Shown one piece after another: positions 12,220 through 15,336 of a DNA stretch of 15,336 bases (the first letter of the stretch is position 1; every line of letters begins with the position of its first letter). The notes under the pieces are model-generated. The model saw only the letters and a program-made list of their open reading frames with translations, did no database searches and had not been told where the DNA came from. A program made the translations under genes and the position numbers. Source of the stretch: Succinivibrio sp. (lineage in GTDB: Bacteria; Pseudomonadota; Gammaproteobacteria; Enterobacterales; Succinivibrionaceae); assembly GCA_017959135.1 (NCBI GenBank), contig JAGDBH010000013.1:1-15336 (forward strand), written 5' to 3'.

Positions 12220-13655
12220 TGAATCCAATGATTTGGGTAATAGACGATGATGCAAGCATTCGCTTTGTTTTCGATAAGGCTTTGGATGTAAACAGCATTA
12301 ATCATCGTCTTTTTGAAAACGCTGAAGCTGCACTTGAAGCTATTAAGAAAGAAACACCTGATGTTATCGTTTCAGATATCAAAATGCCTGGCATTGATGG
12401 TCTTGAGCTAATCAAAGCAGTTCACGAGGTCGATGAGAACATTCCTTTCATTATCATGACAGCCCACTCAGATCTGTCAGCTGCTATTGATGCCTTCAAT
12501 GAGGGCTCATTTGAATACCTGCCAAAGCCATTCGACATTGATCAGGCTGTTGCAGTTATCAGAAGAGCAGCAGTTCACAGAGTAAACATGCTTCAGCTTG
12601 TTAGCCAGAGAAACCGTAACACTCTTATGGCCTCACCAGTTGAGCAGAAGGATGAGACAGAGATTATCGGCAAGTCACCTGCAATGCAGGATGTATTCAA
12701 GTTTATCGGTCGTGTTTCCAAGACCGATTTACCTGTACTGATTCACGGTGAAATCGGTACCGGTCGTGGTCAGGTTGCAAAAGCTCTGCACAATCACGGT
12801 GAGAGAACCGGAAAGAGTTTTGTTTCTATCAACATCTCATCAATTCCACAGGAAATGGTTAAGTATGAGCTGTTCGGTGACATTACCAAGGATCCTTCAA
12901 CCTGCGCAATTGCAAAGGCAGAAGGCGGTACCCTGTTCATCAGTGAAATCAATGATCTGCCACTGGACTGCCAGTCAAGACTGTTAAAGCTTCTGCAGAC
13001 AGGCGAATACACCAATATCGACAGCACAACAGCAATCAAAGCAAACGTAAGAGTAATTGCCTCAACTTCTCAGGATTTAGAGGCAAAGATCGCCAAGGGT
13101 ACATTTAACTCTGATCTTTTCTACAGACTGAATATCATCAACATCAATATTCCTCCTCTAAGAGACAGAAATAATGATATTCCTCTTCTGACCAAGCATT
13201 TCCTTGCACAGGCAGCTCAGGAAGGCCATACCGAGCCTAAGAAGCTGACTTCAGAGGTTCTGGTATTCCTATGCCGTCTTCCATGGCCTGGCAACGTTCG
13301 TCAGCTGAAGAATCTATGTAAGTACCTGACCATCATGGTAACAGGACGTGATATTCAGCTTGTAGATCTTCCATCTGAGTTCCTGCATGCAAACAACACT
13401 CAGAACAAGAGTACCTCAGGCGGTGCTGTGGCTAAGGAAAATCAGTCATGGCAGGATATGCTCAGAAGCTGGGTTGATGCAAAGCTCAAGGCAGGCGAGA
13501 GAGACATTCTAAATGAGGCTGTACCTGAGTTTGAGAAGGTTATGCTTGAAGCTACCCTTACCTTTACAGGTAATCACAAGCAGGAATCAGCAAAACTTCT
13601 TGGCTGGGGTAGAAATACTCTGACCAGAAAGATTAAGGAACTGAATCTGAAATAA
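12219..13655 (+). CDS. glnG: NtrC-family nitrogen response regulator with inactivated AAA+ / no GAFTGA loop
   Basis: The protein has 478 residues (E. coli NtrC 469). The receiver is intact: acidic pair D10/D11, phospho-acceptor D53, T81 and K103 (PKPFD). The C-terminal Fis-type helix-turn-helix (about 452-475, HKQESAKLLGWGRNTLTRK) is almost identical to E. coli. The AAA+ domain aligns throughout but has lost key residues. Walker A is GEIGTGRG (177-184, R183 for Lys). The segment between ELFG and GGTLF is 15 residues instead of 21 and has no GAFTGA loop. Walker B is TLFISEI (S242 for Asp, Glu kept). One arginine finger is gone (FNSDL, N297 for Arg), while R303 is kept. It therefore should not activate sigma-54 polymerase and probably does not hydrolyse ATP. 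Rhodobacter capsulatus NtrC, which lacks GAFTGA and works with sigma-70, is the nearest known parallel. The start overlaps the glnL stop by one base. Confidence 0.93.
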   Translation: MNPMIWVIDDDASIRFVFDKALDVNSINHRLFENAEAALEAIKKETPDVIVSDIKMPGIDGLELIKAVHEVDENIPFIIMTAHSDLSAAIDAFNEGSFEYLPKPFDIDQAVAVIRRAAVHRVNMLQLVSQRNRNTLMASPVEQKDETEIIGKSPAMQDVFKFIGRVSKTDLPVLIHGEIGTGRGQVAKALHNHGERTGKSFVSINISSIPQEMVKYELFGDITKDPSTCAIAKAEGGTLFISEINDLPLDCQSRLLKLLQTGEYTNIDSTTAIKANVRVIASTSQDLEAKIAKGTFNSDLFYRLNIININIPPLRDRNNDIPLLTKHFLAQAAQEGHTEPKKLTSEVLVFLCRLPWPGNVRQLKNLCKYLTIMVTGRDIQLVDLPSEFLHANNTQNKSTSGGAVAKENQSWQDMLRSWVDAKLKAGERDILNEAVPEFEKVMLEATLTFTGNHKQESAKLLGWGRNTLTRKIKELNLK

Positions 13656-13691
13656 TCGCAAATTTTAGTTCATAGTAAAGCAATTTTTGAG

Positions 13692-13720
13692 TGCAGGCTG
13701 GTTTTCCAGACCTGCATTTT
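13692..13720 (+). terminator. Intrinsic terminator of glnLG
   Basis: TGCAGGCTGG (13692-13701) and CCAGACCTGCA (13706-13716) form a 10-bp stem with one bulged A and a TTTT loop, followed by TTTTCTTT. It lies 36 bases after the glnG stop. Confidence 0.88.
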
Positions 13721-13942
13721 CTTTATCAGAGCAAATTTTTTTTCAGTGAAAACGCCTCTATTCTGAGAGCCTCATCAAATAATATTCTTTATATTCAGAC
13801 AGTTAATTGAGTATTAGTTTTTAGTTATAACAGATGATTAAAAATTAGTATTAGCCAAAAGATTTTTAAAATATAAGAATAGCAATATCGAAAGATACTA
13901 AAAAAAATAACAATCATATAACAATAAAAATTAAGGAATATT
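13721..13942 (+). other. A/T-rich promoter and leader region upstream of the metQN leader peptide
   Basis: No gene is visible. The region must contain the promoter for the met transporter. Possible -10 elements are TATAAC at 13826-13831 and TATAAG at 13872-13877, neither with a convincing -35 at 16-18 bases. No MetJ box (tandem AGACGTCT-like 8-mers), SAM riboswitch or T-box pattern was recognised. ATTAGT occurs at 13814-13819 and 13844-13849 and is identical to the 3' arm of the hairpin at 14060-14087, so alternative pairing with its 5' arm is possible. Confidence 0.5.
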
Positions 13943-14056
13943 ATGAAAAAGAATCTGCTATATCTTCAGAAAGAAGCTATCTTCTTATCTGACAGAAGAA
14001 TCACCCTAAACAAATACTCCGACAGCACTTCTGACTGTATGTGTATGTGCATGTAG
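13943..14056 (+). CDS. Putative Cys/Met attenuator leader peptide of metQN (37 aa)
   Basis: An ATG at 13943 with a good ribosome binding site (AAGGA at 13933-13937) opens a 37-codon frame ending at TAG 14054-14056. The last six residues before the stop alternate Cys-Met-Cys-Met-Cys-Met (codons 32-37: TGT ATG TGT ATG TGC ATG); apart from the initiator Met there are no other Cys or Met residues. The peptide is otherwise polar and has no domain. It sits 82 bases before metQ. A pile-up of the very amino acids relevant to the downstream transporter at the end of a short, well-initiated frame, followed by a hairpin and eight T, is the layout of a ribosome-mediated attenuator such as trpL or hisL. 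The ribosome would stall when charged tRNA-Cys or tRNA-Met is scarce. The alternative, a small metal-binding Cys/Met peptide, seems less likely given position and length. Confidence 0.75.
   Translation: MKKNLLYLQKEAIFLSDRRITLNKYSDSTSDCMCMCM
13966..13992 (+). promoter_or_regulatory. Candidate pause hairpin inside the leader peptide frame
   Basis: TCAGAAAGAAG (13966-13976) pairs with CTTCTTATCTGA (13981-13992), giving 11 bp with one bulged A and a CTAT tetraloop, inside codons 8-17 of the leader. In classical attenuators such a first hairpin pauses polymerase so that the leading ribosome can catch up. The right arm can alternatively pair with AGAAG (13994-13998). Confidence 0.55.
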
Positions 14057-14059
14057 CAC

Positions 14060-14094
14060 ACTAATCTCACTGATATTTTCCATTAGTTTTTTTT
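14060..14094 (+). terminator. Candidate attenuator terminator between leader peptide and metQ
   Basis: ACTAAT (14060-14065) pairs with ATTAGT (14082-14087) across a 16-base loop, and a run of eight T spans 14087-14094. The stem is short and A/T-rich, so it is weak on its own; only the T8 tract is strong. A ribosome stalled on the Cys/Met codons (14036-14053) would cover or approach the left arm and prevent pairing, giving read-through into metQ. A 5-bp hairpin TGTGC/GCACA (14046-14050 and 14056-14060) overlaps the last codons and shares one base with this stem. Confidence 0.5.
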
Positions 14095-14138
14095 AATAAG
14101 TTTTATTTAACAGCGTAAAAGCCGAACGGAGTTTTATT

Positions 14139-14990
14139 ATGTCCAAGTTATCAAAGAAAAATATTTTACTTACTGTTTTTTCAGCATTTTTAGCTTTAAC
14201 CTTAACTGCCTGCAACGATGAGGGCAGCAAATCAGCAAAGGCTGATACTGTTCCTGAGCATATCAAAATCGGCGTAGTTCCAGGACCTTACAAGGATCTT
14301 CTGAAGAATCATCTGACTAAGGTTGTCGAAAGCCGCGGTCATAAGCTTGATTTTGTTGAGTTTTCCGACTGGGTACAGCCTGATTCAGCACTTGATGCAG
14401 GTGAAATTGATGCCAACCTGTTCCAGCACTCAATCTACCTTAAGGCAATTGTTGAGAATCAGGGCTTAAAGCTTGATGAAGTTATCAACGTACCAACACT
14501 AGGCTTATTTGCTTTCTCTGAGAAGGTTAAATCACTTGATGATCTGAGAGATGGTGCCCTGGTTGCACTGCCTAATGATGCAGTAAATCTGTCACGTGCA
14601 TTAAGATTCGCCCGCGATGCAGGCATTATCACCCTAAAGGCTGACAGAGATGATCTCAAGGCATCTATTGCTGACATCGACAAAAACCCTAAGAACTTAA
14701 ACTTCGTGCCAATGGAAGCTGCTCAGCTGCCACGTTCTCTTGATTCAACCGATCTTGCTTTAGTTCCTGGCAACTATGCATATGAAGCAAAACTGCCATT
14801 TGACAAGGCTCTGGCAAAGGAGAAGGTTTCTGAGCCAATCAAGCTTGTGGTTACCGTACAGAGTGATCGTGTAAACACCGTTGGAGCCTTCTTAAAGGAC
14901 GCAGTTGCAAGCCGTGAATTTACCTCATCTGTAAATGCAGATCCTCTATACAGGGATTTTGCTAAGCCAGAGTGGTGGCCTGCAAACTAA
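14139..14990 (+). CDS. metQ: Methionine ABC transporter substrate-binding lipoprotein MetQ (NlpA family)
   Basis: MetQ captures D/L-methionine in the periplasm for the MetNI importer. The 283 residues (E. coli 271) begin with a lipoprotein signal peptide: basic start, hydrophobic stretch, lipobox LTAC with Cys25 as the lipidated residue. Family signatures are IKIGVVPGPY near residue 43, the DANLFQHSIYL block that resembles DANYFQHxPYL of the E. coli protein, LPNDAVNLSRALR, and VPGNYAYEAKL. The ATG is preceded by CGGAG (14127-14131) at seven bases. It lies downstream of the Cys/Met leader peptide and 40 bases upstream of metN; the order Q-N differs from E. coli metN-metI-metQ. Family assignment is firm; methionine is the most likely ligand, but NlpA-family relatives may bind cystine or related compounds, which the mixed Cys/Met leader would also allow. 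Confidence 0.92.
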   Translation: MSKLSKKNILLTVFSAFLALTLTACNDEGSKSAKADTVPEHIKIGVVPGPYKDLLKNHLTKVVESRGHKLDFVEFSDWVQPDSALDAGEIDANLFQHSIYLKAIVENQGLKLDEVINVPTLGLFAFSEKVKSLDDLRDGALVALPNDAVNLSRALRFARDAGIITLKADRDDLKASIADIDKNPKNLNFVPMEAAQLPRSLDSTDLALVPGNYAYEAKLPFDKALAKEKVSEPIKLVVTVQSDRVNTVGAFLKDAVASREFTSSVNADPLYRDFAKPEWWPAN

Positions 14991-15030: not shown

Positions 15031-15336
15031 ATGATCAGATTCGAAAATCTAAGTGTTAAGTTCTCGCATACCGACGCTGAATATACAGCAGTGGACCGCG
15101 TTAATCTAACCATTAACAAAGGCGAGTTCTTCGGAATAGTAGGCGCATCTGGTGCAGGTAAGTCAACACTGGTTCGCACGGTTAACCTGCTGCAGAAGCC
15201 TACCTCAGGTAATGTGTACATCAATGGGGAAAACATCGTAAACTACAGCGGACAGAAGCTTAGAAACCTAAGATTAAACATTGGTATGATCTTTCAGCAC
15301 TTCAACCTGATATCAAATGCCACTGTCTATGACAAC
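15031..15336 (+). CDS. metN: Methionine ABC transporter ATP-binding protein MetN, 3'-truncated by window edge
   Basis: The first 102 residues of the MetN ATPase are visible; the frame is still open at the window end. Walker A is GASGAGKST (38-46), and the Q-loop Gln89 lies in IGMIFQHFNLIS, a segment shared almost word for word with E. coli MetN. MetN drives import through the MetI permease, which is presumably encoded just beyond the window. The ATG at 15031 follows GGAAAG (15015-15020) and 40 bases of spacer after metQ with no terminator, so the two are co-transcribed and would share control by the leader at 13943-14094. The C-terminal ACT-like NIL regulatory domain of MetN, if present, is outside the window. 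Confidence 0.95.
   Translation, partial: MIRFENLSVKFSHTDAEYTAVDRVNLTINKGEFFGIVGASGAGKSTLVRTVNLLQKPTSGNVYINGENIVNYSGQKLRNLRLNIGMIFQHFNLISNATVYDN

Follow-up and report, generated by a model that had tools for sequence, protein, structure and literature searches.

A short reading frame ending in alternating Cys and Met codons as the probable leader peptide of a metQ operon in Succinivibrio and its relatives

Results

A Cys/Met-ended reading frame lies directly upstream of metQ

The window analysed here is a 15,336-nucleotide stretch of contig JAGDBH010000013.1 from Succinivibrio sp. Its 3′ end carries the first two genes of a transporter operon, and NtrB- and NtrC-type genes lie upstream of the short reading frame that precedes them. 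The features of this region are as follows.

13826..13854, + strand: 29-bp box TATAACnnAynATn10TATTAG, which recurs at the same spacing upstream of leaders
13933..13937, + strand: ribosome-binding site AAGGA of the leader, invariant in a five-sequence alignment
13943..14056, + strand: leader peptide frame of 37 amino acids, MKKNLLYLQKEAIFLSDRRITLNKYSDSTSDCMCMCM, whose homologues P0001-P0005 share the CMCMCM or CMCMCMCM end
14036..14053, + strand: Cys-Met-Cys-Met-Cys-Met codons, the proposed sensor, assigned from the sequence and residue counts
14046..14060, + strand: hairpin H1 (TGTGC-ATGTA-GCACA), found in a search of leader ends and reaching from the final codons across the stop
14069..14094, + strand: weak hairpin followed by T8, a doubtful terminator (-1.5 kcal/mol; judged by shuffles and relatives)
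14139..14990, + strand: metQ, for a MetQ-like substrate-binding lipoprotein of the NlpA/Lipoprotein_9 family (Pfam match above cut-off, E 1.1e-59)
15031..15336, + strand: metN, truncated by the contig end (best NCBIfam match, below cut-off)

The preliminary description of this DNA had named a 37-codon frame with an AAGGA site, six alternating Cys and Met codons and a stop, and all of these are present. Five bases separate AAGGA from the ATG, and the frame ends TGT ATG TGT ATG TGC ATG TAG, with the stop at 14054-14056. The metQ and metN genes that it had placed downstream are likewise present, with ATGs at 14139 and 15031.

The NCBIfam models for MetQ, MetN and MetI were the best matches to the transporter genes, yet they scored under their curated cut-offs; from these sequence matches, the substrate is likely methionine. 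In S. dextrinosolvens DSM 3072, whose MetQ is 98% identical to that of the window, the operon reads metQ-metN-metI-aminotransferase, and the aminotransferase matches methionine aminotransferase models among others, again under their cut-offs. MetQ identity is 96% in the uncultured RUG260 genome and 93% in S. dextrinosolvens ACV-10, and these three nearest MetQ matches place the contig in Succinivibrio. As a side observation, a scaffold titled [Clostridium] symbiosum ATCC 14940 encodes a MetQ 45% identical to the window's—as close as the Anaerobiospirillum MetQs—which may reflect contamination or transfer.

A DNA-similarity search of the window's own genome (87% complete) matched the leader only to itself and gave no second copy, and the regions upstream of its MetQ paralogues L293 and L294 (196-base upstream region) yielded no leader. 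When ten leaders were scanned with Pfam and NCBIfam, no model exceeded its cut-off; two matches were weak (E 0.2 and 0.11).

The end of the leader is kept across the Succinivibrionaceae

This MetQ is carried by 27 of 56 Succinivibrionaceae genomes at E 1e-45 or better, and a Met/Cys-ended leader precedes metQ in 19 of these 27, by detector and by eye, a count whose members are not independent since many leaders are closely related. A strict blind detector fires in 14 of the 27 loci, once per genome, versus 53 of 2700 shuffles, and misses G004, G005, G013, G020 and G032. Two of these, assigned by eye, are weak members: the leaders of G004 (...KRMPVLA) and G020 (...IRMYS) hold one and two Met, respectively, and zero Cys in their last 14 residues. 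No leader was found within the up to 900 upstream bases checked in the other eight genomes (G001, G008, G012, G015, G019, G063, G066 and G067); the G001 and G019 loci begin close to a contig end.

Within the window's clade, comprising the window and genomes G009, G014, G010 and G003, CMCMCM or CMCMCMCM closes every leader. When 5.8 billion proteins were searched with a 45-residue relative as query, five matches were returned, all with one of these two ends and with different first parts; one of them, P0002, is the G003 leader itself. Elsewhere in the family the starts diverge widely and the ends are alike (SCLCMRMTF, SCMCLCMRMPL, MCCMRSCMRMPR, SCSMRMPVLA, SLSMRMPVLA, SMRMSH and KINMCM), including those of Anaerobiospirillum (SSMRMPAMA, SSMRMPGMA, CMRMPVMA, FMCMPAMA and MCTPAMA). 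The check that the preliminary description had proposed—looking for Cys/Met-ended frames upstream of metQ in relatives—thus came out positive, with the ends kept and the N-terminal part largely varying. A leader peptide with Met/Cys codons before metQ is therefore well supported.

Leaders before other genes were sought by pattern across the family genomes. Frames ending in CMCM and a stop occur at 10 places in the 56 genomes as against one in a reversed control; they comprise five metQ leaders, the porin leader described below and four further places (L041, L042, L043 and L048) that look like chance. One of these four, in an Anaerobiospirillum genome (L042, G067:C29), is a 17-residue frame ending LCMCM with no nearby gene downstream; it is conceivably a leader all the same. 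The pattern ATGCGNATGCCn(3-9)GGC, modelled on leaders ending in M-R-M-P, occurs at 71 places in the same 56 genomes, seven of which are metQ leaders; none of the remaining places, which include the repeated ELMRMP frames L052, L211 and L212, was judged leader-like. A peptide search returned, besides the query and the porin leader, only weak matches (best E 0.04), the G013 metQ leader among them.

In the alignment, the terminal codons make up a run of TGTATG units that differ in number between strains, as might a hexanucleotide repeat arising by chance in AT-rich DNA. We regard this origin as so improbable as to be negligible, given that the Met/Cys end is kept in relatives and given the shuffle controls. 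In the 17 codons before the repeat, synonymous differences outnumber nonsynonymous ones (34 to 26, pairwise), as would be expected if the product were a small functional protein with no role in regulating metQ. Alternating Cys and Met residues could bind metals, and a metal-binding protein would be one example of such a product. This explanation is very improbable: the N-terminal parts diverge widely between clades, Cys is lacking in the last 14 residues of 5 of the 20 leaders considered next, and the frames stand before metQ and its paralogues, overlap a hairpin and, at the sister leaders, show an attenuator-like anatomy.

Met is the common signal and Cys a variable addition

Residues were counted, start Met excluded, in 20 leaders (the 19 metQ leaders and the porin leader). 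Met makes up 68 and Cys 39 of the 280 residues within the last 14 positions, versus 2 and 12, respectively, of the 575 remaining residues. Met is present in the last 14 residues of all 20, whereas Cys is missing there in G004, G020, G029, G032 and G064. Met is thus the common signal across the family and Cys a variable addition, strong in the window's clade. The dual Cys/Met sensor put forward in the preliminary description fits that clade and many other leaders; as a rule for the family it does not hold.

Ten of the 20 family leaders, as well as three of the four clostridial leaders described below, carry M-R-M at their end, with the Arg encoded by CGA, CGT, CGC or AGA. This variety of codons suggests that the Arg is retained at the protein level, as would suit an arrest in which the ribosome reads the terminal M-R-M of the nascent chain and senses Met or SAM instead of tRNA charging. 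However, the window's clade ends in CMCM with no terminal Arg, the number and spacing of Met and Cys vary, and the ends of the sister leaders are quite different, so that we consider nascent-chain arrest improbable.

A hairpin overlaps the end of the leader

A hairpin at the leader end was counted if, in the 36 bases around the stop, its stem had 5 bp or more, or 4 bp of which three were G-C. Eighteen of the 20 leaders possess one (shuffles: mean 5.3, maximum 10); G011 and the porin leader fail this criterion. Of these hairpins, 15 overlap the stop codon, and those of G016, G020 and G065 end just 5′ of it. Their arms vary yet pair (TGTGC/GCACA, GACCT/AGGTC, TGTCT/AGACA, ATGCC/GGCAT, TGCCTC/GAGGCA and TATGCCA/TGGCATA). 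Their position corresponds to that of hairpin 1:2 in a classical attenuator, and a ribosome on the Met codons would be expected to open the stem.

The preliminary description had further read a hairpin 3′ arm running into T8 as a terminator near position 14090, and this part fell away. The hairpin at 14069-14087 has a 6-bp stem of -1.5 kcal/mol and is followed by T8 at 14087-14094; a hairpin and T-run of this quality turn up in 84 of 1000 dinucleotide-shuffled spacers, none of the four near relatives (G009, G014, G010 and G003) has a comparable terminator, and a consensus scan across 13400-14400 gave no candidate terminator. We therefore rejected a conserved intrinsic terminator between the leader and metQ in the window. 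H1 is the better hairpin of the two. No clear antiterminator was seen in the window, and a search by eye found no direct antiterminator in the metQ leaders of the M-R-M type.

Two further read-outs were weighed for the window's clade. Under translational attenuation, the leader segment ACTCCGACAGC would pair with the region of the metQ ribosome-binding site, which a stalled ribosome would release. The pairing in G009 (11 bp with one bulge, -18.4 kcal/mol) is matched in 1 of 300 shuffles and that in G003 in 6 of 300, and between G009 and G014 a C-to-T change in the leader is accompanied by a matching change on the opposite side (by eye, in the alignment). However, 128 of 300 shuffles equal the window's own pairing, the corresponding fractions are 0.17 for G014 and 0.54 for G010, other tested metQ leaders pair no better than chance, and masking simulations were mixed, with the simulated ribosome positions not consistently freeing the metQ site. 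Sequestration of this site was accordingly rejected as a family-wide rule on the strength of the shuffles and simulations, and translational attenuation is rather unlikely overall.

The alternative of Rho-dependent attenuation, in which a ribosome that has finished would expose C-rich RNA to Rho and a stalled one would shield it, draws on base composition. In four Anaerobiospirillum leaders, C amounts to 33-36% against 17-23% G, their spacers to metQ are 359-799 nt long with 27-30% C against 19-26% G, and no terminator stands out at these loci. In the window, on the other hand, the excess of C over G is slight (20 to 17 in the leader, 16 to 12 in the spacer). We hold the involvement of Rho as a tentative possibility, with the balance tilted against it.

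Other known regulators of methionine genes were also sought. None of the 56 family genomes, the window's 87%-complete assembly included, gave a match to MetJ (PF01340), with a positive E. coli control, and Rfam models gave nothing at gathering score at the window or the other 18 metQ leader loci, nor at threshold at the leaderless family loci and sister leaders that were tried. These results agree with the preliminary description, which had recognised no control by MetJ, SAM riboswitch or T-box.

Sister leaders stand beside MetQ/NlpA paralogues

Leaders of this kind are not confined to metQ. A second leader in G005 (...SCMRMCMCM; L088, G005:C4) is 73% identical to the metQ leader of that genome (E 1.7e-16) and lies 248 bases upstream of a gene for a Gram-negative porin (PF00267); it is followed by TCCGTCACTGACGGA-GTTTT.

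We surveyed 60 regions beside MetQ paralogues, 59 from Succinivibrio and one from Succinatimonas. On either strand, these contain 12 Met/Cys frames with a ribosome-binding site, one of which (G002:C57) had been met earlier beside the 29-bp box; shuffles gave 0.4 per set. Two types belong to the window's own clade: a G014 leader ending ...SSMCTCHSCTLMCM, to which leaders of G003 and G010 are related, and a G009 leader ending ...SMCCSCHMCCSPMSM, each before a MetQ match; the NlpA domain was confirmed for the gene behind the G014 leader. A further sister leader, ...CLSLCMCMPMCMR, was found in G005.

Four sister leaders are followed by strong terminators: L315 (...MMCMCAMCMCYLSMSGGAL), upstream of an NlpA gene and msrA, at -7.7 kcal/mol; L324 (...FRMCRIMCLRMMRGAALPCQKF), with a stem of -12.0 kcal/mol; L329 (...CCRMCMCMMRRTRRAS), with a stem of -18.1 kcal/mol and an interrupted T-tail (TTCGTTTT); and L333 (...VLMCMFSMCCVMCMMCSVMASAYIQKS), with a stem of -9.9 kcal/mol. 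At each, RNA 3′ of the main Met/Cys cluster can pair at or next to the 5′ arm of the terminator. This candidate antiterminator would take up seven arm bases in L315, five in L324, eight in L329 and only two in L333; the L324 segment itself contains one Cys codon. Pairing as good arose in 23 (L315), 1 (L324), 25 (L329) and 61 (L333) of 500 shuffles, so that one of the four is individually significant (L324), L315 (4.6%) and L329 (5%) are borderline, and L333 (12%) is not. As in classical attenuation, the segment would be available for the antiterminator when a ribosome stalls on the Met/Cys codons, and would tend to be covered by a ribosome that moves on to the stop.

The survey's 12 frames include three more. 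A Cys-rich leader in G014 (L302), ending CSCFCCSRM, precedes a gene for an FAD-dependent oxidoreductase (DAO) and then another NlpA-like gene, and a leader in G009 (L296) is its relative; judged by sequence, the two are possibly Cys-sensing members. Upstream of a MetQ paralogue in G013 (L326, G013:C77), a frame ending LSLMMCMRMRAW may be another leader, whose start would lie further downstream.

A 29-bp box recurs upstream of leaders

The box at 13826..13854 lies about 90 bases upstream of the leader. All five genomes of the window's clade, as well as three clostridial genomes with leaders (G198, G081 and G082), have it at the same spacing; it was not found at the remaining 14 metQ leaders of the family. 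Further occurrences in Succinivibrio lie upstream of 2-oxoacid:ferredoxin oxidoreductase operons, of a MetE-like gene and of the L315 leader of the NlpA/msrA operon (box loci outside the window: L249, L250, L253, L259, L260, L261 and L262). Across the 56 family genomes the pattern matches 16 times, versus six in a reversed control, none of the six in these clade members; among 295 clostridial genomes, 53 contain matches, many of them AT-rich and chance-like. The box may be a promoter of the leader transcript that also holds a site for a regulator.

Leaders and SAM riboswitches before metQ in Clostridia

Among 80 named loci, leaders of the same kind precede MetQ in Ruminiclostridium sufflavum, Tyzzerella sp. 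UBA1042 and Anaerotignum sp. MB30-C6. In the order of the last of these, 15 of 295 screened genomes carry MetQ: three have a leader (one of them, in G198, new) and two have a SAM riboswitch instead, and neither element was recognised in the other ten, three of which were run against Rfam. This brings the clostridial leaders to four in all, for example NMCMRMLRTKDYCVGRCCMQKK. The hairpins behind them range from -9.5 to -13.4 kcal/mol, with a clear T-rich tail in three of the four.

Both riboswitches (RF00162; L198 in G165 and L199 in G123) lie immediately upstream of metQ, at the place where close clostridial relatives have the leader; L199 shows two successive matches. Further afield, a SAM riboswitch lies about 1.8 kb upstream of metQ at Bacillus and Peribacillus loci, and a T-box just upstream of it at an Enterococcus locus. 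Four 9-residue Paludibacteraceae frames and a weak Ruminococcus frame (L149) were not counted as leaders.

Discussion

The window combines a short frame with its own ribosome-binding site directly before an operon and, at the end of that frame, clustered codons for the pertinent amino acids that are conserved while the rest varies. We consider it probable that the frame at 13943-14056 encodes the leader peptide through which ribosome-mediated attenuation controls the metQ-metN-metI-aminotransferase operon, because the frame is conserved, it ends in Met and Cys codons with a hairpin at its end, no MetJ or riboswitch was found, and the sister leaders show a corresponding anatomy. The transporter models that scored under their cut-offs reduce our confidence in this explanation to that level.

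Judged from sequence features, control would very likely operate through ribosome stalling. When charged Met-tRNA—in the window's clade also Cys-tRNA—is short, the ribosome would stall on the terminal CMCMCM codons, keep H1 open and change how the RNA from leader to metQ folds or is exposed, such that metQNI would be expressed; with amino acids plentiful, the ribosome would complete the leader and depart, and expression would be damped. Translation of the leader, the stall and the direction of control are what we infer here. For the window's clade, the read-out may be the weak terminator, Rho or access to the metQ ribosome-binding site.

The his, trp, leu, phe and thr operons are controlled by leader-peptide attenuators following the classical 1:2, 2:3, 3:4 scheme. 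The leaders described here share with these the codons of the regulated amino acid near the end and a hairpin at the leader end, and four sister leaders also share a terminator and a candidate antiterminator. They differ in that the signals are Met and Cys and that the window's clade has no convincing terminator. The SAM riboswitches and T-box before Firmicutes metQ serve a related gene, but are RNA elements without a peptide.

The closest published case, as far as the available text of that report goes, is the metL leader MSTTSDRTPATEATTTPGARCMCRRMCAF of Streptomyces lividans TK24, which precedes metNIQ, ends CMCRRMCAF and has no clear intrinsic terminator (PMC8079986). Like the window, it is a short leader with a Met/Cys-rich end before a metNIQ-type operon, so that the window's anatomy falls within the metL type. 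Unlike the Shine-Dalgarno-led frame of the window, metL begins at a leaderless transcript start, and its authors, in that same available portion, stress Met and Thr (PMC8079986). It is known from one organism, in contrast to the family-wide, multi-operon pattern in Succinivibrionaceae, and the likeness described here is one of anatomy. The preliminary description had been aware of no gammaproteobacterial leader of this exact type. Since metL has been published (PMC8079986), a wholly undescribed type can be claimed less strongly; the narrower claim, limited to Gammaproteobacteria, is uncontradicted, no Met leader in Gammaproteobacteria having been found in the open-licence literature, to the extent of the text available there.

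Leaders with Cys codons are also on record. In Actinobacteria, the accessible part of one study describes Cys leader peptides before cys operons, with the codons near the stop and without obvious terminators; it proposes Rho-dependent attenuation for them and states that there are no conserved RNA structures before methionine operons (PMC1262725). A comparable excerpt for Rhodobacterales describes the Cys leader uORFC-8-2 before cysS (PMC8632094). Both resemble the window in having Cys codons in a short leader and differ from it, as far as these excerpts show, in using Cys without Met and in their target genes (PMC1262725, PMC8632094). The exchange of leaders and T-boxes is discussed in the available text of another paper (PMC2965389).

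A broader possibility is a sulphur-amino-acid attenuation regulon that would replace MetJ in this gammaproteobacterial family and reach Clostridia together with the promoter box, with M-R-M read both as nascent chain and through tRNA charging. We think this improbable, much as we do nascent-chain arrest; if it were true, methionine would be sensed by a peptide that itself needs methionine for its start.

Met is an awkward signal for a leader-peptide sensor, in that leader translation should itself start more slowly when Met is short. Cells may circumvent this problem with additional Cys codons, or by confining Met codons to the extreme end of the leader. Before related transporters, the family offers leaders that naturally range from Met-only through Met/Cys to Cys-rich, some with what looks like a complete attenuator, set in a gammaproteobacterial background in which MetJ was not found in any of the 56 genomes; and in Clostridia, leader peptide and SAM riboswitch substitute for one another before one gene.
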